The notes under the pieces are model-generated. The model ran no database searches and was not told the DNA's origin. It was given only the letters and a program-made list of their open reading frames with translations. 64,000 nt of DNA from Ilex aquifolium. Lineage: Eukaryota > Streptophyta > Magnoliopsida > Aquifoliales > Aquifoliaceae. Numbering within the stretch: position 1 is the stretch's first letter; each line of letters begins with the position of its first letter. The stretch is taken from positions 27,444,635-27,508,634 of the forward strand of contig OX637405.1 of the NCBI GenBank assembly GCA_951799425.1. Reading direction: 5' to 3'. Of this stretch, positions 1-49,845 are shown one piece after another. The translations under genes were made by a program, and so were the position numbers.

Positions 1-683
1 TTGGAGTTCCCAGAGCGTTCGTATCTGACAATGGAAAGCAGTTTGATAATTCAAAGTTCAAAAGTTTTTGTGCCGAGCTCGGAATCAAGAACTATTTCTC
101 AGCTCCTGCCCATCCCCAGTCTAATGGGCAGGCGGAGGTCACAATAAGAACCATAAAGTCAGCTTTGAAGACCAAGCTAGAAAACCTGAAAGGCAAATGG
201 GTGGAGTACATTCCGGAGGTATTGTGGGCCTACAGGACCACCGCCAGATCTGCGACTCAGGAAACCCCCTTTGCTTTGGCCTTTGGGACCGAGGCAGTGG
301 CCCCAGTGGAGATAGGGCTCCAATCACCAAGGGTGGAGTTTGCAGATCCCGAGCACAATGATGAGTCTCTCTTGCTAAACCTCGATCTCTTGGATGAAAA
401 GAGGGACAGAGCTCTGCACCGTGTCCGTACTTACCAAAGGAAAACGGCAAGGTACTATGACAGGAGGGTAAGACACAGAAGTTTCAAGGTTGGAGATTTG
501 GTACTTAGGAGGCTTCTGCTTGCGAGAAAGGATCCCACACATGGGAAATTGGGACCCAATTGGGAAGGGCCCTATATCGTGTCAAAGATAATCAGACCAG
601 GGAATTACGAGTTGCAAACAGAGGAAGGAAAGGTTCTACCTCACTCGTGGAATGCCGAGCACCTTAAGAAGTTTTTTCAGTAA
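1..683 (+). CDS. Integrase, C-terminal part (Tat element 1)
   Basis: The reading runs in from the left edge of the window. It contains the end of the integrase catalytic core: a conserved SDNGKQF-type segment near position 30, then SNGQAE near 120-135. The C-terminal region carries the GPY-type module (WEGPYIVSKI, near 565-595) and ends in HLKKFFQ. Integrase would insert the cDNA into host chromatin. No chromodomain follows, which fits Tat rather than chromoviruses. The same C-terminus closes pol in the two reverse Tat elements near 21943 and 37559. Confidence 0.9.
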   Translation, partial: GVPRAFVSDNGKQFDNSKFKSFCAELGIKNYFSAPAHPQSNGQAEVTIRTIKSALKTKLENLKGKWVEYIPEVLWAYRTTARSATQETPFALAFGTEAVAPVEIGLQSPRVEFADPEHNDESLLLNLDLLDEKRDRALHRVRTYQRKTARYYDRRVRHRSFKVGDLVLRRLLLARKDPTHGKLGPNWEGPYIVSKIIRPGNYELQTEEGKVLPHSWNAEHLKKFFQ

Positions 684-761
684 GTGTTACTTGTAATAGA
701 ACTACTTTTAAATAAGAAAGAGCAAGCCTTTTATTCACCCTCCAATGGTCTCCAAAGAAGC

Positions 762-1755
762 AAGATGAGCTCTTCAGCTCATAAACAAACGATAAGCTTC
801 AAAGCTTATAAATGCAAGATGAGCTCTTCAGCTCATAAACAAACGATAAGCTTCAAAGCTTATAAATGCAAGATGAGCTCTTCAGCTCATAAACAAACGA
901 TAAGCTTCAAAGCTTATAAATGCAGGATGAGCTCTTCAGCTCATAAACAAACGATAAGCTTCAAAGCTTATAAATGCAAGATGAGCTCTTCAGCTCATAA
1001 ACAAACGATAAGCTTCAAAGCTTATAAATGCAAGATGAGCTCTTCAGCTCATAAACAAACGATAAGCTTCAAAGCTTATAAACGCCAGATGAGCTCTTCA
1101 GCTCATAAACAAACGATAAGCTTCAAAGCTTATAAATGCAAGATGAGCTCTTCAGCTCATAAACAAACGATAAGCTTCAAAGCTTATAAATGCAGGATGA
1201 GCTCTTCAGCTCATAAACAAACGATAAGCTTCAAAGCTTATAAATGCAAGATGAGCTCTTCAGCTCATAAACAAACGATAAGCTTCAAAGCTTATAAATG
1301 CAAGATGAGCTCTTCAGCTCATAAACAAACGATAAGCTTCAAAGCTTATAAATGCAAGATGAGCTCTTCAGCTCATAAACAAAAGATAAGCTTCAAAGCT
1401 TATAAATGCAAGATGAGCTCTTCAGCTCATAAACAAACGATAAGCTTCAAAGCTTATAAATGCAAGATGAGCTCTTCAGCTCATAAACAAAAGATAAGCT
1501 TCAAAGCTTATAAATGCAAGATGAGCTCTTCGGCTCATAAACAAAAGATAAGCTTCAAAGCTCATAAAAACCCGATGAGCTCTTCAGCCCATAACAAAAA
1601 GAATGGGCTCTTCAGCTCATAACTACAGGATAAGCCTCAAAGGCTTATAAACAAAAGACGAGCTCTTCAGCTCGTACAAAGTTCAAGGCTGAACGCTTCT
1701 TGGAGACACCAACAGTCAAGTTCAAGGCTGAACGCTTCTTGGAGACACCAATGGT
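762..1755. repeat. 54-bp tandem array of paired hairpins
   Basis: There are fifteen near-identical 54-bp units from 762, a partial sixteenth from about 1572, and divergent units to about 1680. Each unit holds two self-complementary 18-mers: ATGAGCT-CTTC-AGCTCAT and ATAAGCT-TCAA-AGCTTAT. At 1678-1755 there are two copies of a 39-bp unit with another small hairpin, GTTCA-AGGC-TGAAC. Because 54 is divisible by three, one frame stays open through the array. That frame encodes a monotonous SSSAHKQTISFKAYKC repeat and is not taken as a gene. The array lies between the integrase stop and the 3' end of antisense aORF-A. Confidence 0.95.
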
Positions 1756-2064
1756 CCTCCCCCCAGGACCAGATACCCTTGTGCACTGCCTACACACCCA
1801 AAGACCTCGAAGGGTCCAGAACAACAGAGAACACCTATGAGGTCAGATGAGAAGTAAGGTCAGAGCAGACATGATCTTCTGTTTTCCATCTACGTTCGTG
1901 TTTCGAACGAGAAGAGTAAGCTGAAATAACCTAACAGAATTCGAGATGAATGAAAAGTCTGGCATTCGAAATATCCGACAGTACAAATATTCAGACAAAT
2001 ACAAAAAGAGTCATAGTCTGATATCGCTTAAGAAAAGAAAGAACGATACAAGGAAACAAAGATC

Positions 2065-3153
2065 CTAGTCTTTCTTAAGTTCAGTTTTCAGCTCAGCAAT
2101 CTCTCCCTTCAGGCTAGCATTCTCTTTCTTCAGCTCATCCCTTTCCTGCTCAGCCTTTTGAAGCGAGTTAAGGAGCTTCTGACCAATAGAGGTAAGGAAG
2201 ATGGTGGACAGAGAGTCAGGAGAAGGGGAATCGTCCCTTTTACGCTTCCTCGAACTCGTGACGGTGTTTCCATCCTTGTCAGAATCCCCATCCTCATCAG
2301 AATCAGAGAAAGAGGTCCAGGAAGAGTAAGGAATAGTGGAAAACTCAAACTCAGTAGCCTCAGCCCCAAGCAAATAGAGGTTTGCGCTCGTCATCAGCTC
2401 GGAATAAGTCTTAGACTCCACAAGCAACAACTCGTTGATATTCACCATCCCTGGTAAATCCAGGTCAGGTGGATCTACACAGCAAGGGCATAATCAGAGC
2501 ATATTTTTAAAAGGAAAGTACTCAAAAGAGCCATGATCGAGCTTACCAATACGAGAGAAGCTCTTCCAGGACCGAGGAATCCTGGCTTTACGACAGCGAT
2601 CCTCAGGAGACCTCCAAGCCTCTCCAGAAGCGAAGAAGAAACGCTCAGACCACCCTTCAGGGTTGGAGGGAAGATCTAGAACCAGAGGGCGTAAATTGAA
2701 ATCCCTCCAACGGAAGAAACTGAAGCAGGGGGCATCATCTTCCTCAATCTCAAAGAAATACAGGAACTCAGAGACAAAGGGGAACCTGCCAAGAGCATGC
2801 AAGCGGCAGAACAAGAAAAAGCTTATCATAGCAGCCCATCCTCGTGGAGAGAGGCGAGAAGGGCACAGGCCATAATAGGCAAGAACTCGCCCAATGGCCG
2901 GATGAATGGGAAGGCGAAGTCCCATGCCCATAGCACCTTCGAAGAAACAGACCTCCCCTCGGGGGAGGTAATTGCAAGGCTCGTCGGAGGAAGAGACTCG
3001 CAAAGGCAAATCAAGATCAGGGAAAAAACGTTTCTTGATGTCCACTAAATCAGAAGATTCAAGTATTGAGGGGGACAAATAGCGACGATGCCACTTCCAT
3101 TTGATTCCAGAGGAGGATCGTTCATGGAACAGAGAAGAAGCAGAGGCAGCCAT
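2065..3153 (-). CDS. Antisense gene aORF-A of Tat element 1
   Basis: This gene lies opposite to gag-pol and shows two coding blocks separated by a short intron-like gap. The first block (3153 to about 2550) starts MAASASSLF and contains GLRLPIHPAIGRVLAYYG with SRLSPRGW. That is the signature of the Pfam family named 'putative gypsy type transposon' (Transposase_28). Despite the name, no transposase catalytic motif is visible. The second block carries an acidic Ser/Asp-rich stretch, a basic patch (SRKRKRDD) and a C-terminal coiled coil. The coiled coil has leucines every seven residues and an Asn/Ile core, a leucine-zipper pattern. It could be a nuclear, dimeric, structural or regulatory protein of the element. 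Its function is unknown. It is closely related to the genes at 20230 and 35805. Confidence 0.75.
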
Positions 3154-4171
3154 CGAAAGCGCTGGTAAGGAAAAAGACGCAAGAAATCAAGAAGAAAGTC
3201 AAGAATATGTCACACACTTGGGTGCTTTTCAGGAAACAAAGAGCCAAAAAATAGGGAATCAGGTCGCCTGTTTGGTTTCCTAATCAATGAAGGTAGGGAC
3301 GGTTGTGGAAAGTAGTAGCGGTTATGGAAAGGGGCTACGGTTATGGAAAGTGGTTGCGGTTATGGAAAGGGGAAAGACGTGACGGTTATAGGAAGATGTT
3401 GAGAGAAAAACGCGGGAAAAGAAATCAGATACTACCCCCCCTCCTTATATTGCATTCAAAACAACGAGGAAACATTCTGACCCCGTCAAGCCACATATCC
3501 TCCGTATTTGAGCCTAGCCCTGTCGAAAAAGCACTCCTTAAAGCAAGGCAGGGGAAAAGAAATATGAAGAGTAGAAGAAAGTATTCTCTTCTCAGAAAAT
3601 AAGAGCAATGAAATTTGTTATCCTTCTCAAAAAAAAAAAAAAAAAAAAAAAAACCTTTGAGTTCAGACAGCAGAGCCAAAAAGCTCAGTAAGAGCTTTTA
3701 TGGTTCATAGGAAGAATTGTACAGCTCGGGAAGAACTCACAGCCTAACATACTCGAGCTATATAGCTCAGGAGGAGCACGCCAGTTCAGAATACCAAGTC
3801 AAACAGCTCAGAACAAAGAAGAAGAGGGAAGGGATCCCCAAGATACTCTTTACCGAACTCAAAAACACAGGAAAATCAGTTGAGCATAACACCAAGTCTC
3901 CCTTACTATTCAATCTAGTATTTTTGCTTCAAGAAGTGCACGGCCCCACTCAAAGCAAAAGGGGGCAGGGGAATATATACTGAGCAAATAAAGCAAAGCA
4001 GGTAAGTGAGCAGTTGAAGTCCAAATTAAAAATCAGAGATATGTATACGCATATGGATGCTAAACCAACAAAAGAAAAGAAAGATAAGGTTCACAAAGTA
4101 ACACGAGGACCAAGCCCAAATTAGGGGTACATCTCAAAAATCCTTTACAAAGAAATTACAATTAAAAAGAT
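3154..4171. other. Spacer between aORF-A and aORF-B, element 1
   Basis: About 1 kb separates the start of aORF-A from the end of aORF-B. Near 3300-3375 there are short GGTTATGGAAAG-type direct repeats, and at about 3629-3652 a run of A. I see no convincing coding sequence. Lying just upstream of aORF-A on the minus strand, it should contain that gene's promoter, but I could not identify a firm TATA box. Confidence 0.5.
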
Positions 4172-6822
4172 CTAAGTTCCTGAAGGAGGAGTAATTGGGG
4201 AATCTCGCAGCTCAGCAGAAGGGCCTTCAGCAATAGGAGCTAGGGGAGAGCTTCCAGGAATGTCTTGGGACCCCGCTTCCGTTGATTCAGGATTTTGGGC
4301 AAGGGTTTCAGACACCAAGTTTGCAGAAATTGGTGCAACAGCAGGATCTACACCAATGAGCTCAGGGATCGCTGTTGAAGGCTCAGGAAGCACGACAAGA
4401 GCTCTAGAGGTCCCAGGGGCAGGTATGTCCTGACTCGAAGCAGCAGCGGGGGAAACTGAGGCATCCTCCTCGTTATCAGAGCTAGACTCCTCCAATTCTT
4501 CTGTGGTAGGGGTAGAAAAATTGAAGTTAAGGTCTGGAAAAGTTTTGATAGCCTTGCGCCTGAAAGCAAGCCATCCGGTAGCCCACAGGGTGGTGGCCTC
4601 GTCTCTCAGCTCGGCGATCTCTTTGTCCTTCTGTTGGACCAAACTTTTCTGCTCCTCGAGCTCCTCACAGAGTTTGCCGTTAGCCTCGCTGAGGGTAAGA
4701 TAGTCTTGATTGGCCTGGATGAGCTCTTTCTTGGCATCGAAGGCCTCCTGGTTAGCCTTGGACCACGCCTCGACCTTAACCTGCAGGTCTTCCTTAACCA
4801 ACTTCAGCTCATCCCGAGCCTTCTTCTCCCCCTCCTCAGCTCTGACCTTGACTGTCCACGTATGCTTGAGATCAGAAGCTTGCTTCATCGTCTGCTCGTT
4901 GAGGCCCTCCATTTGTACTTTGAGGCTCTCCACCCGAGCCCTGAGGTCTTCATTCTCGAGAGACAGTTCAGAAACCTTGGTCTTAAACTTCTTCAAGACC
5001 TGAAAAGAGCTCTCTTGGGACCTAACCCGATGCAGCAGACCTTTTACATGGAGGGCAGCCTAAGAGAATAAGGAAAGCTCAGCAGGTTGCAACAGACCAT
5101 GAAACTAGAATGGACAAACAAAGAAGGGAGTTAGCACTTACAGCGGCTGCTCCTTGAAGAGCTGAGTCGATGGACTCCTCCAGTGGCATGGAAGCGGCCT
5201 TCAAGACATCAGCCTCAGAAAATATAGAAGACAGAGCTCCCGCAGCAAGATCCATGTTGTCGAAAAAGGAGTCCTCATCTTCCTCCGCAGATTTTCTCTC
5301 TTTCTCAATCACCTTCCCAGAAGCGCTGTATTTGAAACTCTCGGGCTGAAGGTCGGGAACCAATTTCAAAGCCTCCTCGACCTCAGAAGAAGAAGGGGAA
5401 GCTTGACCCCCCTCTTGAGCAGACGTCAACCTAGAAGGGGCCACTGGAGGAGAAAAGGCGGTTGCAGTTTGTGGAGTCCCAGAGGAGGAGAGTGGAGCCT
5501 TACTTGGAACCTGTCCCTCCGCTGCAGAGGGGGAGGAAGATACCTCCAATCTGGGGATTTTGGCCCGGGTACCTGGACCACTCCCAGTACTAGCCCGGGC
5601 CTTGCGCTTGCTAGATCTACCACCTCTCATTAGCTCATCCACCTTGGCCTGGATCTCTTCTGGGGTAGATTTCATGGTAGAAGGACCCGGAAGATCTGGA
5701 AGAAATAGGATAAGGTAAAGGAAAAGAGAAGAGAAGGGAAAATGATGAAGAAAGGAAAAGTTGAAATTACCTTCGTCAGCCCCTAAAACAGATAATGGGA
5801 TCGCTAAAGTCGCCACAGGAAGACTCAGACCTAGCTGTACTAGGTTCCTTGACTCAATCAAGTCGGCGTACTTCTCTGGCTTGATCTTTTCCAACTTGGC
5901 TAGCACCTTTTTGTCCTCAGGACTGAGCTCGTAGCGTTCACCTGAGAGAAAGAAAGTAGGCAAGTGAGAAAAAGGTGAGGGGCCGGCGAATGTCAGATCA
6001 GAGCTCGGACTTAAGTAAGGACTCACGTAAATTATCTGGTTCAGCCCAGGCCGTAGGAATACCGAGTGTGTCTGTTTTATCAGCAGGGTTGTACTCCCAA
6101 TTGGCGCCCCCGACAAAGAAGAAATGTTCCTTCCAGTGTTTATGGGAGGTCGGAATATCAGAGATGAGCTGCCTAATGCTGGCACGCTTGGAGGCGTACA
6201 AGAAGCCTCCGGAGGTCGGTTTAACATTGAAGAGCTCTAAGAACAAAGGAATGCTAGGAATCCCAAGTTTATGCTTCTTAAATATGACTAACAGACCAAC
6301 CATGACGCCATAGAAGTTGGGGGAAATCTGGGAAGGGCACACATGAAAATGCTGCAGAACGGCCTTGATGAAGGGGTGCACAGGAAAGCGAAGGCCGTTG
6401 TCAAAAGCGGCAAGGAAAAAGCAGACCCTATTGTGCACCTTTTCTACATAGTAGACGGATTGGTCTGGACACCAGGGTTCGACCCCAGGAGGAAAACCAT
6501 ACCGAACCTTATAGGTTTTCATTAGCCCAGGGGCCTCTTTACTGTACCCCACCGATTCAGCATGCTTAAAAGCAAGCCCCAAGTACGAGGTTTTTTCCTC
6601 AACCCCGACTCCGCTAACCTTGCCCTTGCCTTTGTTGGGCTTGGAGGACACAGGAGAAGGCTGGGAAGGAGGTCCCTCAGTACCGACCTCGGTTTCTACA
6701 ACATCCACCCCAGGGAAATTATCTATCTCCTCACCTACCTCTCCTAATTCAGTATCTTCCTCGGCTGACCTAGACCCTAAAAGTGAAACAGAGGAACGTG
6801 TGGCTCCAGAAGAGGCAGACAT
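4172..6822 (-). CDS. Antisense gene aORF-B of Tat element 1
   Basis: This is the second antisense gene, in several coding blocks separated by intron-like gaps. The first block (from 6822) begins MSASSGATRSSVSL, has an acidic Ser-rich lead, and then carries NGLRFPVHPFIKAVLQHF followed by SQISPNFYG. This is the same 'putative gypsy type transposon' motif as in aORF-A. Middle blocks are Ser/Pro/Lys-rich. The last block (about 5000-4172) is a long coiled coil of roughly 110 residues, then an Ala/Pro/Ser-rich acidic tail. The shared motif and plan suggest aORF-A and aORF-B come from an old duplication. The gene looks nearly whole here. Its function is unknown. Confidence 0.7.
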
Positions 6823-7463
6823 GGTCGGGCAGGAAAAAGGAAGGATAAAAGAGCGATAGAGAGGGGGAACACTGATCAAACTCTCCCTAATAACCCTAGG
6901 GTCAGCACAGTAACTCCCGACGGCAAGGATGTGGATTATAGAGCTCCAATCGACGAAATGAGGAAGGGGAGCTAAGCAATGGTCGCGATTCCAAAAGTAA
7001 AAGAATCGAAAAGCCCAAAAATGCAGTAACCACCTCGAATTCGAGGGATCCAGAGCAAAAGGAAGAGGAAAAGGGGGGCAAAGGACGTACCTAACTCAGA
7101 AATGGCAGCGAACGGAAACCTGGGGCACTATCGGAGGAAGGAGGCGATGCGAGTCTTCTAAACAAGGGCTGGAAATGCGATTTCAAGCAAGAAAACAGAA
7201 GGGTACCACGGTCCGAAGTTGCAGAGAAAATAGGGAGAGCAGTAAAGAAGATGAATAGTGCGAAGAAGCGGTTTAGATAGCCGTTTTGAGCATTTAAAGC
7301 TGGGGAGACGTGGGCTGAGACATGCGCGGGAATCGAGGAAAGTCATGATGACTACAAACCGTCAGAAATCCTCCAGTCACGTGTTAGCCACGTGCATGTG
7401 TAACTCGTCTTGTGCAGGTCATCCCCTGCCTGAGCTAACTCAAGGCAAGGGCTGGGGGGCAAC
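6823..7463. other. aORF-B upstream region and polypurine tract, element 1
   Basis: This is the 640-bp stretch between the aORF-B start and the 3' LTR. It should hold the antisense gene's promoter and leader. At its right end a G-rich tract (GGGCTGGGGGGCAAC, near 7450-7463) touches the LTR start. That is the expected place and composition for the plus-strand primer used in reverse transcription. The complement is seen beside the 3' LTR of the reverse element at 15449. Confidence 0.6.
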
Positions 7464-8172
7464 TGATGATACCTAAAGTAAACCCCAGATCTGAGCTCAG
7501 GAAAAGAGCTCAGTTCGGGAGTTTATGGAGAACTAAGCTGAGCTCATCCAGCAAGGTCTGAGCTCGCCCAATCGGAACTTATATTCCCAACTAAAGACAT
7601 GAGCTAAGAAACAATGAGAGGGCAGTAAAAAGGCAGTAGATACCCGAACAGGGGGAGTTAAGTCAATCCAAGGCAAGAAATCCGCTACCAGCCAGGATCC
7701 TATCCTAAAACCAAGGAGAGAATCCCCTAACACAAGGCAGAGAACTCGCCATCCGCGGTCAGCCATAAGGGGTTTAGGAAAGCCCGAGATTATAGAAGAA
7801 GATAGGGACGATCCCTACAATAAAGGAAGTAACCCCGAATTAGAGGTAAGCATGAGGCTATAAAGAGGAGGGGCAGCTTCCATTGAAAAAAGACTTGAAA
7901 CCCTAATACCTTGAGAATTCTGTTGTAATTTATTGAATTAGATCAATAAAGAGACAGGAGCAAGAACCTCCATTAGAGAGTGGACTAGCCGAGCTCATCA
8001 GCCGGTGAACCACTATATTTCTATTGTATTTCACACATTACACACGACTAATTAGAGCTTTCATTCCCCACTTCACGAGCCTTGTAGCTCAGATGCCATA
8101 TTAGTCCCCATGCAAACTGCTCACGCCAATTAATTTGGTCCTATAGCTCGTATCCGAAGGTTTACGCCATCA
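7464..8172 (+). repeat. 3' LTR of Tat element 1
   Basis: A 709-bp LTR starting TGATGATACC and ending CGCCATCA, with the inverted TGATG/CATCA ends of this family. It follows the polypurine tract directly. The right flank begins CAATT. The left copy is outside the window, so its age cannot be judged. The LTR is rich in GAGCTC/AGCTC words, as are the other LTRs of the family. Confidence 0.88.
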
Positions 8173-10109
8173 CAATTGATTTTTTTTTATTACAAATATA
8201 AAAAGTATCTCTATTTTCCCTTAAGATGTTTCTTACGAGATTCAATCTTAAAAATTTGAGTTCTTAATAATTGAAATCTTGTGATCCGAACTACCTATAT
8301 AGATTTATTAGTAATATTATTATCTAATTCACAAGAGTTCTTTCAAATTCATTGTTCTTTAAATCGGGTTAGTATGGACTCGATGACTAGAGTAATAATT
8401 GAAAATCAGAATTACTGTTGGGTTGATCCATCACATTTTAAAATCCGCCCATGTAATTCTGCCTCCCACGATCACTTCGAATTAGGTTTTCCGTACCTTG
8501 TTTCCTCGCTTTCTAAACCTTATATTTCCTACTCATTGTTAAATAAACTATTGAAAGCCAATATTCTTAGATTTAAAAAAACAAACATGGAGAATTTATA
8601 TTTTCCAGTAATTAAAATTGCCAAGTTGAGTAGAATTGCATAAACATGTGATATGTTGAGATAACTACTAGACAAAAGGAGTAAATATTCAGCGTAACGT
8701 TGTTTCTACGTTATCGGCAACACGTGATATCACCAATTAATAATAATAAATCATTTAAAATAAATAAAGCTTCCTATTCCAACGTGTTAGTTAGTTAGCC
8801 TGTTGGTTACTAAAAAAATTATCAGAATAATGGAATTCACTAACCACACATGGTATACTATCATTTGGTAGATGTATTATAAGTGGATTAAATATGATAT
8901 TGTATTATTATTGATTTAATTGGGTCTAATACTTTGTTTGACAGATAAATTTGACACATTTACTATTATAACCCCACAACTAATAAAACCAAGTTATTAT
9001 CAACGTAACAAACATTGATTGATGGTATTTTTATTAATTCAATATTAATATTATAAAATAATGTCATAACTAAACAACCGATTGAATTAAATAACTATTA
9101 TCCAACGCTTATGTTGTATATTGCCAAATACTAAATAAAATGATGTATTATTCTAATAACCTATTTAATCTTGTCTTTTATACATCTATATTGTATTAGA
9201 CTAGATTATTTTATCCAATCTATCTATTTTTAATTCGACAACCAAACGAGTCCTTATTGATTAGTGACACCACGTGTCACTGATAATCGAAATATTTTCC
9301 CCTGGTAAGGGCGACAGCCCCCATTCGTAGGTTTTTTGGGAACCTTTGAAGGAGAAGGAAGAAAAGGGGTGCGGGGGGGGCAATGATCTGAAAATTCTGT
9401 GTCATTACATTAGTGTTAACATACAGACTAACATTTGCAAAGAGACCCAAGTTTAGTGAAGTTAATTGAGTGGACTGGAATATCATGCTTGTAAAAAAAA
9501 CTATATACCAATGTCAAAAATGCTAAGAAGTAATGGAATATCATGCTTATAAAAAACTATGAATGGCTGGTCATATAGCCAGAGAAAATCCCCATGCCAT
9601 AGCACAATTGATATCAATTTATTACTAAAGGATAAAAACACCCTTTTGAAGTCACCAACACAACCTGTCCGCCTCTGTGTGTCTTCCTCAACCCAATCTA
9701 CAACATTTTATAAAAAAGAAGAAAAGAATTCAGCATCACCACACACAAATCCTATCCCTCCATGGCCAATACTCTGCATCTCGGTTACTTTTATCAAAAG
9801 ACGCGATAATCCTAAGTTGAAACCATCATGTCTGCGTTCGTATGCATTACGACTCTGCTAATCGTACTTTGTATGCCACATCCATCAGTACATGAAGTAA
9901 AAAAAGAATATATACAACCTTAGCTCAAAACAAGATTTGAAGCATAAAACAAAGTTCCCTTGTATCATATGAAAAAGTCATCATGTTATACAATGGTTTA
10001 AGCAACAAACAACACATGTTATTGTAAAACTATTTGACAGACAAGAAGCCTACAAACATAGGCTTTACAACTATTACCATACATATCGAAATAAGATGCC
10101 ATTACCAGA
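8173..10109. other. AT-rich intergenic DNA
   Basis: No gene is seen. Weak inverted similarity between about 8861 and 9255, ending CCAAACGAGTCC, could be a decayed MITE. A small palindrome with a CACGTG core lies near 9265-9281. A direct repeat of about 28 bp (ATATCATGCTT...TAAAAA) occurs at about 9478 and 9537. The right part should include the 3' UTR of the minus-strand gene that ends at 10110. Confidence 0.5.
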
Positions 10110-11387
10110 TCATGCTTTCACCAGAGGATCCCGGAGAGTTATCTCCGCAGCCTCCTTGTCAAGATCAAAGTACTCATTCTCTTCCACCGGCCTGAACATA
10201 TAAAACATCACCATATAAAACGCAAGACTTCCGATCTCCTCAGCTGCATAGGCCACCCACTGATACTTATATGTTGTGATTGTCAGCAGGGCAAACACAA
10301 CAATCCTCGTATAAAATAAGTACCCAATAACCACAATATAGAATTTCCTAAATACAGACAACTTCCCCAAATTCCTCGCGGCCTTCCCATCCATCTTCGA
10401 CGCCTCCCTCAACGAGGATCTAATTGAGAAAATAATTGTAAAACAACATACAATATCCACCAAGAGAAACCCTTGATTCCAGGTCACCCAATCTTTTGTA
10501 AACGGACCCGTTTCTCCGATGACCATGGAAGCCACATTGCCCAGAACCTGTAGCGGAATCACTATCATCAACACCTTCTTACCACCTTTTCCTTGCAAAG
10601 AGGGTTCCAAAAATGACCACCAGGTACCAATCGATATAATCACCGTAGACAAAAGTAGAACCCTAATCAATTGAAATGCGTAGAAAAGTATATTCCACCC
10701 GTGGGGTGTCCCTGTGACCTTAACATAGTGTTTATACTTGGACAAGATGACTAAATTCAGAGTTTGCGTTATAATCAATAGGGTCATGAGCAAATGGATC
10801 CGATGTATTGATCTTCTGGTACGGTAACAGTGGTACAACCAAAACCCGAGAAAATATGAGTATATGAGGAAGAAAAGGAAATAGAGAGAGGGGAGCTGAG
10901 TCAACCCGGCGGAGAGATAGTCCTTGGAGGCGCCGGAATCGAGATTGTAGAGCTCTGTACGGACGTCCATGGTGACTTGCAATTCAGGGACGCAATTGGC
11001 GAAGAAGAGGGAGTATTCATTGGGGACGGTGACGGGGTAGGATTGGTTGAAGGATAAGTGAGGATGGGATGAGAGGTCGCGGAAAGTGAAAAGGAGGTAG
11101 ATGAATTTGGAGTCGATGATGCAGAAGCTGGGATTGTGCATGAGTTCGAGGAGGACTTGGATGCAGGACTCTTCGGAGAGGAGAAAGAAACCGAGGCGAG
11201 AAGAGTCGGTGGAGGAGTAAGAGGAGCTGACGGAGGCGGACATAGAGAGGTGGCCGGCGTGGGTGAAGCCGAATTTCTGGAAGACGATCATCGGGCGGGA
11301 ATCGGAAGTGATCTTTATGGTCTTGATCTCGGCGGTGGTGAAGGAGAGGAGGGTAAGAAGGATGAGGAAGAGGTGCAGTTTTGCCAT
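10110..11387 (-). CDS. Lung seven-transmembrane receptor family protein (GPR107/CAND6-7 type)
   Basis: An uninterrupted 425-codon gene. Residues 1-20 form a signal peptide (MAKLHLFLILLTLLSFTTAE). Residues 21-160 form a lumenal domain with the family's SRPMIVFQKFGFTHAG segment. Seven hydrophobic spans follow at about 165-187, 196-215, 232-257, 271-291, 305-322, 349-371 and 378-398. The cytosolic tail is acidic and contains FRPVEENEYFDLD. Length and layout match plant Lung_7-TM_R proteins, candidate GPCRs of Arabidopsis (CAND6/CAND7). Animal relatives (GPR107/108) act in Golgi trafficking, so a secretory-pathway role is likely, but this is inference. The start context AAAATGG is good, and no introns are needed, as in the Arabidopsis relatives. 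A MITE sits 102 bp upstream. Confidence 0.93.
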   Translation of the reverse strand: MAKLHLFLILLTLLSFTTAEIKTIKITSDSRPMIVFQKFGFTHAGHLSMSASVSSSYSSTDSSRLGFFLLSEESCIQVLLELMHNPSFCIIDSKFIYLLFTFRDLSSHPHLSFNQSYPVTVPNEYSLFFANCVPELQVTMDVRTELYNLDSGASKDYLSAGLTQLPSLYFLFFLIYSYFLGFWLYHCYRTRRSIHRIHLLMTLLIITQTLNLVILSKYKHYVKVTGTPHGWNILFYAFQLIRVLLLSTVIISIGTWWSFLEPSLQGKGGKKVLMIVIPLQVLGNVASMVIGETGPFTKDWVTWNQGFLLVDIVCCFTIIFSIRSSLREASKMDGKAARNLGKLSVFRKFYIVVIGYLFYTRIVVFALLTITTYKYQWVAYAAEEIGSLAFYMVMFYMFRPVEENEYFDLDKEAAEITLRDPLVKA

Positions 11388-21439: not shown

Positions 21440-21870
21440 TATTAGCTGAGGAACTCTTCTGGTGTGTATGAGCTGAGGGGCTCATCTTGTATTTCATAAG
21501 CTGAAGAGCTTATCTTATATTGTATGAGCTGAAGAGCTCATATTGTATTTTATAAGCTGAAGAGCTTATCGTTTGTTTATGAGCTGAGGAGCTCATCTTG
21601 AGCTGTAGAGCTTCTTTTTGTTTTATGAGCTGAGGAGCTCATCGTTTGTTTATGAGCTGAGGACCTCATCTTGAGCTGTAGAGCTCCTTTTTGTTTTATG
21701 AGCTGAGGAACTCATCGTTTGTTTATGAGCTGAGGAACTCACCTTTTATTTATGAGCTGAGGAACTTATCGTTTGTTTATGAGCTAAGGAACTCATCGTT
21801 TGTTTATGAGCTGAGGAGCTCATCTTATATTTTATAAGCTGAAGAGCTTATCGTTAGCTCTTTAGCTATT
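21440..21870. repeat. Hairpin tandem array of Tat element 2
   Basis: About fifteen degenerate 27-28-bp units of the form (T)ATGAGCT-GAGG-AGCTCATC or ATAAGCT-GAAG-AGCTTATC with T-rich linkers. This is the reverse complement of the array in element 1. It lies between the end of aORF-A (21271) and the end of integrase (21943), so both genes point into it. Confidence 0.9.
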
Positions 21871-28024: not shown

Positions 28025-29345
28025 TGATGAGTGGGTTTTATACCTACGAATTGATTATTTTTGGTTTGATGAAATTACAAGTTTTCAATTATTTTTTGTT
28101 CCTTTTTATTTATTTTGTGTGTTTTGATGTTATTTTGTGGGGATGATCATTTGGAAGAAATCATAATCGTTTGGGAGGAAACAAGGTCAAATTGGAGCCA
28201 AATTGTTGGATTTTTTAAGAGGAAGTCAAAAGGGCATTTTAGCCTTGAAAAGGGAGGCGCGCCTAGGCGCCAAAACCAGCGCCTAGGCGCCAACATTCCG
28301 CCCATTCAGTGCTTTTCCAGCGCCTAGGCGCCGGTGTTGGTTTTGTACGCGATTTCTGACTTGTTTGACCCGAAATTGGACTTTAATGCTACCTATATGC
28401 TAGGGTTTGATGGGGTATATATAGATACTCACTTCTGGGGGCTGAAAAGAGAAGAAGACCAAGGATTGATAGAAAATTGAAGGCAAGAATCGAAGAAACC
28501 GACATGAAGAAAATCGGACTTGAAGGCTAGAGAAGGATTGAAGATTGCAACTAAGTTTTCATTCTTTTCCCTTACTTTTACTTCTTGATTTTCTAAGATG
28601 TTGTTTAATTTGAGAAGGATGTTTTTCAATTACATTATGAAATAAATTTTTATTAAGATTGCAACGGAACCTATTGTCTAGTTAAATTTATCTACTCTCG
28701 TTTCTAGTTCTTGTTGATCATATATGAGTTGTTTGTCATATTTTATGTTTAATATATAATTGTTTGGCCATCAATTAATTTGATAACCTAGATGAAATTG
28801 GGAGATGGATTCTAGGTTTAGATCTGAATATGATGACATGTGTCTGGTTAATTCTTCTTCGGATTGAATTGCTGGGTTTGTGTATAGGATAGGAATATAC
28901 CTATATGCCGTGTGTAACTTGTATGAGAGTTTGAACTTAATGAATCTATTCCAACTTATTTTGCATAGGAATATAGCAATTTAATTGGGAGAGATATGCT
29001 TATCTTACTATCGGAAGAGGTTTGATAAATACTTTTGAAGTCTCAGTTAACAATTCAATTTGATCAATTAACTGGAAAGATTTATACGAAGCATTAGGGG
29101 AAGTTGTAATCTTAACTTCTTTTATCCGTTAAATTCAATCTTTGATTATTAAGTTTAGATTTAGTTTAAATTATTCATTCCATAGTTCAATTCCAATTGT
29201 TTAAATAAAATTGAATTGATATAAAATTAGTACTTGAAATTTATTATTAATAATTCTCCATGGGAACGATACTCTACTTATCACTTTATTACTTGTTGAT
29301 CGTGTATACTTGCACGTAAATTGTCAATATCAAATTCGGACAACA
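28025..29345 (+). repeat. 5' LTR of Athila-like element
   Basis: Starts TGATGAGTGGG and ends GGACAACA. It contains three copies of the palindrome GCGCCTAGGCGC at about 28259-28333. A TATA box (GGTATATATAGATAC) lies at about 28414-28428 and fits the U3/R boundary. Confidence 0.95.
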
Positions 29346-33308: not shown

Positions 33309-34624
33309 TGATGAGTGGGTTTTATACCTACGAATTGAGTATTTTTGGTTTGATGAAATTGCAAGTTTTCAATTATTTTATGTTTATTTTTATTTATTTT
33401 GTGTGTTTTGATGTTATTTTGTAGGGATGATCATTTGGAAGGAATCATAATCGTTTGGGAGGAAACAAGGTCAAATTGGAGCCAAATTGTTGGATTTTTG
33501 AAGAGGAAATCAAAAGGGCATTTTAGCCTTGAAAAGGGAGGCGCGCCTAGGCGCCAAAACCAGCGCCTAGGCGCCAACATTCCGCCCATTCAGTGCTTTT
33601 CCAGCGCCTAGGCGCCGGTGTTGGTTTTGTACGCGATTTCTGACTTGTTTGACCCGAAATTGGACTTTAATGCTACCTATATGCTAGGGTTTGATGGGGT
33701 ATATATAGATACTCACTTCTGGGGGCTGAAAAGAGAAGAAGACCAAGGATTGATAGAAAATTGAAGGCAAGAATCGAAGAAACCGACATGAAGAAAATCG
33801 GACTTGAAGGCTAGAGAAGGATTGAAGATTGCAACTAAGTTTTCATTCTTTTCCCTTACTTTTACTTCTTGATTTTCTAAGATGTTGTTTAATTTGAGAA
33901 GGATGTTTTTCAATTACATTATGAAATAAATTTTTATTAAGATTGCAACGGAACCTAATGTCTAGTTAAATTTATCTACTCTCGTTTCTAGTTCTTGTTG
34001 ATCATATATGAGTTGTTTTTCATATTTTTTGTTTAATATATAATTGTTTGGCCATCAATTAATTTGATAACCTAGATGAAATTGAGAGATGAATTCTAGG
34101 TTTAGATCTGAATATGATGACATGCGTCTGGTTAATTCTTCTTCGGATTGAATTGCTGGGTTTGTGTATAGGATATGAATATACCTATATGCCGTGTGTA
34201 ACTTGTATGAGAATTTGAACTTAATGAATCTATTCCAACTTATTTTGCATAGGAATATAGCAATTTAATTGGGAGAGATATGCTTATCTTACTATCGGAA
34301 GAGGTTTGATAAATACTTTTGAAGTCTCAGTTAAAAATTCAATTTGATCAATTAACTGGAAAGAGAGTGAAAAGATTTATACGAAGCATTAGGGGAAGTT
34401 TTATCCGTTAAATTCAATATTTGATTATTAAGTTTAGATTTAGTTTAAATTATTCATTCCATAGTTCAATTCCAATTGTTTAAATAAAATTGAATTGATA
34501 TAAAATTAGTACTTGAAATTTATTATTAATAATTCTCCGTGGGAACGATACTCTACTTATCACTTTATTACTTGTTGATCGTGTATACTTGCACGTAAAT
34601 TGTCAATATCAAATTCGGACAACA
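33309..34624 (+). repeat. 3' LTR of Athila-like element
   Basis: Pairs with 28025-29345 at about 98.5% identity. About 447 bp in the middle, which include the palindromes and TATA box, are identical between the two LTRs. Confidence 0.95.
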
Positions 34625-35804: not shown

Positions 35805-36875
35805 ATGGCTGCCCCTGTTTCTTCTCTTTTTAAAGAACGAACTTCCTACGGGATCGACTGGAAGTGGCATTCCCATTACTTACTCCATTCAACAATGAAG
35901 CCTTTAGACTTGGAAGATATCAAAAAATGCTTCTTTCCTGAACTGGACTTGTGCCTACGAGTCCCGACCCCTGATGAGCCTTGTAACTACCTTCCTCGAG
36001 GGGAAGTTTGCTTTCTCGAGGGTGCTATGGACATGGGCCTTCGTCTTCCCATTCATCCTTCCATCGGGCGGGTTCTTGCATATTATGGCTTATGCCATTC
36101 TCGTCTCTCACCCTGTGGTTGGGTTGCTATGATCAACTTTTTTCTCTTCTGGCGTCTACACGGCAATAATGGGTTCCCTACCGTTGCTGAGTTCCTTTAT
36201 TTCTTTGAAATTGAAGAGGATGAACTCCCCTGTTTCAGCTTCTTTCGGTGGAGGCACTTCAACTTGCCCCCCTTGGTTCTTGACCTTCCTCTTCTACCTG
36301 AAGGGTGGACGCTTCTTTTTTGCATCCGGGAATTCTTGGAGGTCTGCCGCGCAGTGCTGTTCTACGACTAGAATTCCACGCTCCTGGAGGAGCTTCTCTC
36401 ATACGGGTATGTTCAGGTAGAGCTATTTTGACTAAATCATGTGAAAAATCCGTTCAATTTATGTTTTCGTTGTGCAGGCGCCCCTGACCTGGATTTGTTG
36501 GAGATGATGAACATCGATCAACTATTGCTCGCAGACCCCATGCCTTTTTCGGATTTCATGACGCCTGAGAACCTTTATTTACTTGGCGCTGAGGCAACTA
36601 CTCTGGAGTTTTCTTTCTTCTCAGATTCTCCTTGGACCTCTCATTCTGACTCTAAAGAGGAAGGGGATGTTGGTGTGTCCTCAAAGAAGCGCATGAGGGA
36701 TGGTTCCTCTTCGCCTGATTCTTCTTTTGGCACTGTCTTATTTTCCTCGGCAGGAGAGAAGCTTCTCAAATTGCTCTCGGAGACTGAAAAGGAAAGGGAC
36801 GAGCTAAGAGAGGAGAATGCTCGCCTCAAGGGAGAGGTTGCTGAGCTGAAGCAGCAGCTTAAAAAAAAAAACTAG
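35805..36875 (+). pseudogene. Antisense gene aORF-A of Tat element 3
   Basis: Homologous to 20230-21271. It starts MAAPVSSLFKERTSYGI and carries MGLRLPIHPSIGRVLAYYG and SRLSPCGW. The second block, after an intron-like gap, has APDLDLLEMMNIDQLLL, the basic patch SSKKRMRDG and the same leucine zipper. It is lightly broken. It lies on the strand opposite to gag-pol and points toward the hairpin array. Confidence 0.75.
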
Positions 36876-37039: not shown

Positions 37040-37495
37040 CTATTAGCTGAGGAACTCGTCTTGTGTGTAAGAGCTGAGGGGCTCTTCTTAGTTCCATGAG
37101 CTAAGGATCTCACCTTGTTTATTATGAGCTGAAGAGCTCATCTTATACTTTATAAGCTGAAGAGCTTATCTTATATTCTATGAGCTGAAGAGCTCATCTT
37201 ATATTTTATAAGCTGGAGAGTTTATCTTATATTCTATGAGTTGAAGAGCTCATCTTATACTTTATAAGCTGACGAGCTTATCTTATATTCTATGAGCTGA
37301 AGAGCTCATCTTATTTTTTATAAGCTGAAGAGCTTATCTTATATTCTATGAGCTGAAGAACTCATCTTATACCTTATAAGCTGAAGAGCTTATCTTATAT
37401 TCTATGAGCTGAAAGCTCATCTTATTTTTTATAAGCTGAAGAGCTTATCTCATACTTTATGAGCTGAAGAGCTTATCGTTAGCTTTTTAGCTATT
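37040..37495. repeat. Hairpin tandem array of Tat element 3
   Basis: About sixteen 28-bp units alternate between ATGAGCT-GAAG-AGCTCAT and ATAAGCT-GAAG-AGCTTAT, joined by CTTATATT(C/T)T-like linkers. The two forms differ by one base in each arm, and the change is paired so the stem is kept. The position is the same as in elements 1 and 2, between the convergent ends of aORF-A and integrase. Confidence 0.93.
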
Positions 37496-47257: not shown

Positions 47258-49081
47258 AAGGGGTATTTGTAAAACTTTTCTGACCACCTCATATGGGAAA
47301 GTGGCCAACACCATATCTGTGTCCCATCTTTTTTGGGTTGGGATTATAAGCTACTGAACTGTACTTATCATACTTGCTTGTTCATTCAAAATACTTCCTA
47401 CTCAGGCACCCACCCAGAATCTAACTTAACTGCCATCACCGACTTGCCATAAGCACCCTTTGTCAAGGAGATCTCTATCATCCAGTAGGTTGTGCCAAAT
47501 CCAAGAGCTTGCAGCTTTAGGCTTGGCATCTCATATATATCTATCATGGAAGTATTTTGCTTTGAGAAGCTTCCCCCATAGTGAATTTGGGTTTTGGACT
47601 AGGTGTCATGCACGTTTTGCTAACAAAGCAGTGTTGAAAATTTCAATGTCCCTAAAACCCAAACCACCTTCTGTTTTCATCTTTGTAATGAGGTTCAAGT
47701 TCTTCCAATATACTCCCCTTCTTCCTTGAGGTCTTACTCCACCAAAATCTCTTAATACAAGTGGTGATTTCCTGACAAAAAGATTTAGAAAATTTGAAAT
47801 TTGTCATCGCATAAGCAGGTATCGCCTATACCACTGATGACTTTCAACCCTTGATGCTACTGAGAAGAAAATTGACTCGTCTGCAAATAGGAGATGAGAG
47901 ACTCTAGGGGCATATCTATTTAGCTGAAGACCTCTTACTGTCCCATTTTCCAAATCTCTTTGAATCAATCTGGTCAAACACTCCATAACCAAATTAAAGA
48001 GGTAAGGGGAGAGGAGGTCCCTTTGTCTCAAACCCCTACTAGGAATCAATCTTATAACTCTCTCTCTATTAACTATGATTTTATACCTCACTGTAGTAAC
48101 ACATTGCATAATCCTATTCATTCATCTGGGATGGAATCCCATTTTAGTTAGCAACCCCCTCAGAAAAATCCCACTCTACTCAGTCATAGGCCTTCGCCAT
48201 ATCGAGTTTGATTACCATTTGGTATTTCTTTGTCCTCCTCCTTGCTCTCATAGAGTGCAGAAAATATCTTGTGCCATAATGATGTTATCTTGAATCTGGC
48301 TTCCTCTTATGAACGCACTTTGATTTTACAAAATCAAGCAATGCATGAATTGTTTCAACCTGGATGCTATTAGCTTTGAAATAATCTTGCATGAGAAATT
48401 ACCACAACTTATAGGTCTCAAGTCCCCAACATATTCAGGGTTAGAAATCTTTGGAATCAGTGAGATATTAGTTTCATTCAAATCTTTTAAGAGAAAACCA
48501 GATTGAAAGAAAGCTGTGGAATACTATCCAATATCTTTGATAGAATCGCCCTGGTAAGCCATCTAGTCCAAGTGATTTGAGTGCTCCAAGGCTGAAAACT
48601 GTTTCAGTAACTTCCTCCATTGTCGGTTCTCTCTACAAAGTTTCATTCATTTGAATAATGACAATTTGAGGGATTACTTGTAAAGTCTGATGATAATCTG
48701 TTGAGCTTCCTAGAGTAAAAAGATGTTTATAGTAATCTTGTATAAGGCTAAGGATCAATTCTTTCCCAATAACCCACTCAACTTCAGAATTTGTGAGGTT
48801 GTAAAAGCTTATTTCGTTGCCTTCTCTGAATGGTAGTTGTACGGAAAAACTGAGTATTCTTTGCCCCCATAGTGAAGCCATTTAACCCTTGATCTCTGCC
48901 CCCAATACTTCTCTTATCTGATCCAAAGTTTTTCAATTTCATCTTTAAAGACTTCCTCCTCACTGTGGTCTACTCGTAGTTCTTGTCTATTCTGCACATT
49001 AATAAAATTTAACTTAAGAGCCCCAATTTCCTTTCTACTATTCTTGAAAAAACTGGAGCTCCAGCTTAAATCTCTGCTACA

Positions 49082-49845
49082 GTTCTTTAACTTGGCCTTC
49101 AAACGATACATTCTAGATCCTTCAACTTGCCTTCCCCAACTCTCTTTAATGACCTTAGTACACTGGTTTTCATCAGCTCAATAATATTCAAATTTAAAAC
49201 TATGCTTGACCCTGTTATTTGGTGGTTGAGTATCCAGAATAAATGGAGAGTGATCTGAACCTATAGCTGGAAGGGCAAAAACAACAGTATTAGGAAAAGC
49301 TACCCTCCAACTACACGTGGCTACTGCTCGATCTATAGTTCTTTAACTTGGCCTTCAAACGATACATTTTAGATCCTTCAACTTGCCTTCCCCCAACTCT
49401 CTTTAATGAACTTAGTACATTGGTTTTCATCAGCTCAATAATATTCAAATTTAAAACTACGCTTGACCCTGTTATTTGGTGGTTGAGTATCCAGAATAAG
49501 TGGAGAGTGATTTGAACCTATAGCTGGAAGGGAAAAAACAACAGCATTAGGAAAAGCTACCCTCCAACTACGCGTGGCTACTGCTCGATCTATAGTTCTT
49601 TAACTTGGCCTTCAAATAATACATTCTAGATCCTTCAACTTGCCTTCTCTAACTCTCTTTAATGACCTCAGTACACTGGTTTTCATCAGCTCAATAATAT
49701 TCAAATTTAAAACTACGCTTGATCCTATTTGGTGGTTGAGTATCCAGAATAAGTGGAGAGTGATCTGAACCTATAGCTAGAAGGGCAAAAACAACAGCAT
49801 TAGGAAAAGCTACCCTCCAACTACGCGTGGCTACTGATCGATCTA
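49082..49845. repeat. 256-bp tandem triplication inside LINE ORF2
   Basis: Three near-identical units start at 49082, 49338 and 49595. Each opens GTTCTTTAACTTGGCCTTCA, and the third ends where normal ORF2 sequence resumes at about 49845. Each covers the end of the endonuclease domain (SDHSPL segment). The units differ by a few percent. Confidence 0.95.

Follow-up and report, generated by a model that had tools for sequence, protein, structure and literature searches.

Retand elements reportedly carry tandem arrays between POL and the 3′ LTR, as Kejnovsky is said to have described in 2006. In the available passages of PMC11963269, such arrays next to pol are an established trait of Retand, differing in repeat number from one copy to another, and the origin and function of these elements' tandem arrays are given as unknown. 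Ogre/Tat elements have hypervariable repeats in their 3′ UTR, for which an origin through strand transfer or illegitimate recombination as the element replicates has been proposed (PMC7004042 in part, citing Macas 2009), and in soybean the Gmr9/GmOgre minisatellites, short and interleaved, directly follow the coding region, with up to 149 repeats per locus (PMC3305785, available passages). In Beta vulgaris, the palindromes of BvMSat05 have been suggested to make the polymerase slip and to enlarge the array (PMC2820488, in the part available).

The array analyzed here lies in a 64,000-nucleotide stretch of Ilex aquifolium DNA (the window), and it shares with the Retand arrays of PMC11963269 its place beside pol, its variable repeat number and its antisense TRP28 ORFs, with the Ogre/Tat repeats their rapid change behind pol, and with Gmr9/GmOgre the interleaving of short repeats just behind a coding region. 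It differs from all of them, as far as their accessible text goes, in its hairpin theme. In the text available to us, PMC11963269 uses "hairpin," "stem," and "inverted repeat" nowhere and "palindrom" in a reference only, while "hairpin" and "palindrom" are absent from the accessible text of PMC7004042 and PMC3305785; the soybean minisatellites further differ in forming five distinct families, and the BvMSat05 palindromes flank their array, and the accessible part of that paper does not assign them to a retrotransposon. The accessible passages of PMC6911290 and PMC12477314 hold nothing on hairpin units, and the listings and passages of the open-access literature yielded no description of such units in Retand or Ogre arrays. 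A candidate precedent, the "hairpin like" tandem repeats mentioned in the accessible text of PMC3290532, was set aside because the paper cited there concerns Y-chromosome repeats. The original prediction knew of no named function for such an array and was right in this, but the kind of array is already known: it is a hypervariable Retand-type array, whose hairpin theme is without a description in the literature searched, as far as its accessible text goes. New here are the 41-bp arrays with another hairpin pair behind the pol of related families and a second, decayed hairpin set in the element; the presence of two TRP28 ORFs along with two sets of hairpins in a single element is a further difference from the Retand arrays in the accessible text of PMC11963269.

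The carrier of the array, element A, is a young Retand-type (Tat, Ty3/gypsy) LTR retrotransposon. Its LTRs are identical at 708 of 709 positions (the 5′ LTR is at L013:3076-3784), and CAATT stands on both outer sides of the element as a 5-bp target-site duplication, a length common in Retand (PMC6911290, in part). The gag-pol frame starts at L013:3847 (C15:27439846) and stays open until it ends at window position 683; Pfam places in it, in order, gag, RVT_1 (865-1025), RNase H (1086-1213), RVT_3 (1257-1375), and integrase (1469-1635). It thus has reverse transcriptase, RNase H, and an additional RNase H before the integrase, an arrangement common to Retand and Ogre in the part of PMC6317226 available, and two antisense ORFs between pol and the 3′ LTR match TRP28 above the Pfam cut-off. 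The LTR length lies inside the 315-1,194 bp given for Retand in the accessible text of PMC11963269, and the interval 684-7463, at 6,780 bp, is slightly over the POL-3′LTR range of 2,933-6,566 bp given there. As judged from sequence, these features fit the Retand lineage as portrayed in the available parts of PMC11963269 and PMC6317226.

The main array sits between convergent genes, with pol ending upstream of it and the antisense ORFs ending downstream (Table 1). The two TRP28 ORFs are 31% identical over 143 columns, and a comparison of TRP28 with the PDB gave only one match (E 0.48), which was not used. The decayed hairpin set precedes the second TRP28 ORF, so that a hairpin set with an antisense ORF occurs twice in the element. 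A 19-bp tandem repeat (CGGTTATGGAAAGTGGTAG) without a clear hairpin occupies 3299-3372 as a second array type, and a near copy of it is also present in two loci, L124 and L130, of the related families described below. Elements B and C lie on the opposite strand to A, with related arrays behind their own pol ends, and all four clusters of at least four modules in the window fall inside the three elements. Elsewhere in the window, 1.3-kb direct repeats (28025-29345 and 33309-34624, 96.7% identical) are possibly the LTRs of another element between the Retand copies B and C; a 257-bp repeat present three times in tandem (49077-49845) is apparently unrelated to the hairpin array; and a 425-aa ORF (10110-11387, - strand) appears to resemble a multi-pass membrane host protein.

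Table 1. Positions of the array, its carrier, and the neighboring elements in the window.
Feature	Position	Strand	Evidence or remark
gag-pol 3′ end (integrase and pol C-terminus), stop 681-683	1..683	+	open frame running into window
Main tandem array, 54-bp dimer of 18-nt hairpins, 15.6 copies	760..1598	+	TRF, sequence, RNA fold
Divergent 3′ units: one one-sided (1603-1620), two paired (1630-1648, 1658-1675)	1599..1680	+	sequence
Duplicated stretch with GTTCA-AGGC-TGAAC, array end	1681..1755	+	sequence
Antisense ORF, 127 aa, between array and TRP28 no. 1	2065..2448	-	only DivIC match, under Pfam cut-off
Antisense ORF, 219 aa, Transposase_28 (TRP28) no. 1	2494..3153	-	Pfam PF04195, E 5.4e-10
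Second, decayed set of 14-nt hairpin modules, like 41-bp-array families	3603..3868	+	8 template matches, one cluster
Antisense ORF, 293 aa, TRP28 no. 2	5998..6879	-	Pfam PF04195, E 3.4e-9
3′ LTR, 709 bp, one mismatch to 5′ LTR	7464..8172	+	LTR comparison, CAATT flanks
Element B array, hairpin units spaced mostly 27-28 bp	21443..21849	-	behind B pol end (match to 21946)
ORF resembling TRP28 no. 1, antisense to element C	35805..36371	+	tblastn 74% identity over 172 aa
Element C array, 28/56-bp hairpin units	37044..37474	-	behind C pol end (match to 37562)

The sequence bore out the predicted alternation of two 18-nt hairpins, ATGAGCT-CTTC-AGCTCAT and ATAAGCT-TCAA-AGCTTAT, which together make up the 54-bp unit reported by TRF (97% matches) and are separated by A-rich linkers of 9 nt; about 33 such hairpins fall within 760-1680. 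The paired changes claimed for the divergent units were found as ATAAGCC-TCAAA-GGCTTAT and ACGAGCT-CTTC-AGCTCGT (in table order), present in 13/18 and 15/18 A-family loci, respectively, and the GTTCA-AGGC-TGAAC hairpin does occur twice (1681-1694 and 1720-1733), within the duplicated stretch that closes the array. What had gone unmentioned is that four units alongside carry one-sided changes (1521-1538, T.G; 1548-1565, A.C; 1575-1592, A.C; and 1603-1620, G.T), so that, as read from the sequence in and beside the divergent stretch, one-sided changes outnumber paired ones by 4 to 2. The changes in the neighboring units 1575-1592 and 1603-1620, each variant of which is in 15/18 A-family loci, pair mutually across the linker in the predicted fold (AGCCCAT with ATGGGCT). 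We also considered a protein-coding array and rejected it: frame 684-1622 has no stop over 312 aa, 54 being divisible by 3, but the 28-bp and 41-bp units of relatives keep no frame.

Genome searches with the three window arrays listed 46, 58, and 44 places, from which 90 loci were used (18 A, 72 B/C). A unit scan with a template neutral at the pair of columns 3 and 16 (3/16) gave 1857 units, 1815 of them with 4-nt loops, and 1106 distinct 36-mers; left out of the counts were L024 (the same place as L010), L013 (no array), and loops other than 4 nt. Units with more than three mismatches were excluded from the derived-stem, shuffle, substitution-rate, entropy, intra- and inter-unit, and raw mutual-information counts, and mismatch counts cluster at 0-2, under this cut. 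The hairpins are not a product of chance, since an 18-base template, allowing up to 4 mismatches, had no match in 89,993 mononucleotide-shuffled bases and 9-46 matches per array locus. Units were spaced by 27 bp 903 times and by 28 bp 535 times, and their number varied from 23 to 41 in the 13 A-family loci matching at 98-100% identity and from 23 to 47 over all 18. Four A-family arrays lie within ~30 kb on both strands of C12 (22574899-22604989), which suggests clustered or nested insertions.

The paired differences had been read as covariation, to be refuted if arm changes across many copies proved independent and broke pairing as often as they kept it. Over the 90 loci, this refuting outcome is seen at the majority of stem positions but not at one or two of them. 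Among distinct 36-mers, a fraction of 0.886 has a Watson-Crick pair at 3/16, where independence predicts 0.639. By APC-corrected mutual information, none of the 630 column pairs scores higher than 3/16 in the pooled or the B/C set, and its rank is 13th in the A family, in which unit types are linked as wholes; shifting the partner column by 1-3 lowers the covariation score from 0.062 to ≤0.010. The pooled Watson-Crick frequency of the other six stem pairs lies within 0.01 of the independence expectation, with an A-family exception at 2/17 (0.978 against 0.874 expected, through one variant). At these six pairs, one-sided changes number 781 and two-sided changes 37, of which 27 are Watson-Crick.

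The paired differences are nonetheless genuine and tied to the arms of a single hairpin. Both-sided Watson-Crick changes within the same hairpin number 75 in the pooled set against 31.2 after shuffling, a count reached in none of 500 shuffles, but 58 of the 75 sit at 3/16. Arms of adjacent units are nearly the same in letters and only 7-12 nt apart, and they therefore serve as a control for closeness and composition; they show no coupling (31 against 36.2 pooled, 29 against 29.4 in B/C). Pairing between adjacent units, a candidate prompted by 1575-1620, was rejected on these counts and on those of the A family alone, where the within-hairpin comparison gave 9 against 4.0 and the adjacent-unit comparison 2 against 0.6, the latter reached by 50 of 500 shuffles. 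The coupling is thus tied to the hairpin or to the hairpin as a unit of inheritance. Counted over distinct 36-mers, both-sided Watson-Crick cases number 205, and 3/16 accounts for 178 of them, including 31 that come from the array-start unit; T:A at 3/16 (31 distinct 36-mers) was not accepted as one more paired allele, because the loops and flanks around it match the array-start unit in the arrays inspected.

Derived stems gave a second view of the same question. Against a null in which arms are re-paired, nine fully paired derived stems compare with 3.13 expected (reached by 6 of 2000 shuffles), the changes in them covering positions 1, 2, 4, 5, 6, and 7, all but one of the seven; this null leaves no surplus of both-sided changes (23 against 25.7), and the excess of Watson-Crick ones is mild (18 against 13.1, reached by 171 of 2000). 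Among derived stems found in at least 5 loci, 0/26 in B/C are fully paired (8 with G.U, 10 with A.C only, 8 with another mismatch), and 2/6 in the A family are. Transition rates in the stems resemble those of the flanking pol end, and the far higher T>A rate of the stems (54.7 against 6.9 per 1000) is due to unit types that are shared and have A at columns 2 or 18.

Related families extend the comparison beyond these loci. From a genome search for Transposase_28, 150 of 5837 candidates were scored and the stretches beside nine were inspected; TRF found no tandem array at 30 loci from this search. Arrays of 41-bp units are present in L123, L125, L126, and L131, and in the last three of these the pol C-terminus is 84-86% identical to that of the window and ends just before the array. 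The unit holds two 14-nt hairpins, GAGCC-N4-AGCTC (4 bp, with a closing C.A) and GAACT-N4-AGTTC. In L124, L129, and L130 the sets are short and decayed, and the inspected stretch shows no match to pol. L127 and L128, whose pol is 56-58% identical, have no array in the ~350 bases behind it; the module is therefore not universal. Adding four further loci (L132-L135) gave 11, in which a template neutral at the two middle pairs found 173 modules (40.7 per kb against 9.0 in shuffled sequence). The middle pair is G:C in 89, A:T in 64, G.T in 9, A.C in 8, and something else in 3. In the window hairpin the equivalent pair is 5/14, so the paired dimorphism of the related group lies elsewhere in the stem. 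Covariation holds at one position here and at one in the related families; beyond these the excess is weak. Hairpins persist as a theme while the unit sequence changes, and by their size, sequence, and place the modules are probably homologous across groups.

We start from the established identity and position of the array, its variation in unit number, arms less variable than loop and linkers, and coupling specific to those arms. The reading we favor, at a probability of roughly 0.6, is a hypervariable Retand-type array built from an old hairpin module, in which a few old double changes were multiplied by array growth rather than covariation acting continuously. The array occupies the interval between the converging pol and antisense TRP28 ORF, and its units would descend from a module with a 5-bp core, a 4-nt loop, and A-rich linkers that stands at the same place in several families; this common descent we infer. 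Whole units are gained and lost, most likely by strand transfer or slippage in reverse transcription, helped perhaps by pausing at the hairpins. The paired arm differences would go back to a small number of ancient double changes (at 3/16, at 5/14 in families with 41-bp arrays, and several rare ones), multiplied as the arrays grew, and the fold itself, in RNA or in single-stranded cDNA, may keep the arms alike.

A simpler account, tentative in our judgment, holds that two unit types with one chance origin were multiplied and that fold and arms are irrelevant. The non-pairing columns 10 and 18 have a higher raw mutual information (0.273) than 3/16 (0.191), so inheritance of unit types could suffice; both 3/16 types (G:C and A:T) are present in 58/90 loci, and most other changes are independent. 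This account leaves unexplained why the arms stay alike while the linkers diverge (mean column entropy in B/C is 0.41 bits in arms, 0.86 in the loop, and 1.23 in linkers, in a scan whose detection leans on the arms), why hairpins recur in families with another unit, and why paired derived stems are in excess.

Selection on the fold is possible. In the explanation built on it, which we consider unlikely, the hairpins work within genomic RNA or within the antisense transcript of TRP28, with packaging, dimerization, and 3′-end or stability control as candidate roles, and the paired changes are compensatory. Such selection, or copying between arms, was what the covariation had been taken to indicate, and part of the evidence does agree: arm-specific coupling, the excess of fully paired derived stems, paired dimorphisms at two stem positions in related groups, and arms that vary less than loop and linkers. 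The arrays also fold better than their shuffles, at z values that repetition inflates (-13.8 on the + strand and -13.5 on the - strand of 762-1755, 20 shuffles each; -4.5 for the element C array, 37040-37490; and -6.7 for another whole-array fold). Single units reach -3.7 (54 bp), -2.1 (56 bp), and -2.6 (41 bp), the latter two only modestly beyond six control repeats of the window (-1.8 to +1.4). Against this stand the absence of a pooled pairing excess at six of seven positions, when a conserved structured RNA would covary in many pairs, and the lack of a fully paired stem among the common derived ones of B/C. Wobble pairs are not favored on the + strand (202 G.U against 297 A.C cells in distinct B/C units), and a tilt on the - strand (281 to 234 in stems, near parity in flanks) leans on one shared variant. 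Rfam had no match at the gathering threshold in window 1-8500 (best MIR8024, 28.8 of 57.3) or at ten loci (best mir-1284, 34.8 of 80). The named families MIR8024, mir-1284, and sno_ZL63 were dismissed, their weak matches being under threshold, different between arrays, and taken as chance. Antisense MIR8024 matches below threshold were seen at 842-1565 (- strand), L005, and L018 (best 30.2 bits of 57.3, in L018); such arrays can resemble miRNA precursors.

Speculatively, and with rather little confidence, hairpin array and antisense TRP28 may form a cassette, present twice in the element, whose fold rather than unit sequence is kept during repeat turnover and whose hairpins serve TRP28 or the meeting 3′ ends of convergent transcripts. 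It is improbable that the arms are instead half-sites of a putative palindromic DNA-binding site, for example for TRP28, in an iteron-like arrangement at 27-28 bp spacing. The symmetrical arms, variable 4-bp center, and regular spacing would suit such a site, as would the position of the element A and C arrays downstream of the 3′ end of a TRP28-like ORF and the DNA binding predicted for TRP28 (PMC11963269, in part), but half-site hybrids are rarer than expected (83 against 254), a deficit not predicted for a dimer that accepts either half-site. Least probable of all is copying from arm to arm without selection, one arm templating the repair or synthesis of the other in a cDNA fold-back or cruciform, since it expects all positions to behave alike and the both-sided cases concentrate at 3/16 while one-sided variants persist in many loci, even though coupling is confined to arms of the same hairpin and the fully paired derived stems have changed at nearly every position.

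If the arms are irrelevant, the array is a caution that covariation over tandem copies can look overwhelming yet rest on one or two events. If the hairpin module holds the arrays together, it would offer a handle on their amplification, through reverse transcriptase pausing, and a testable partner in TRP28.
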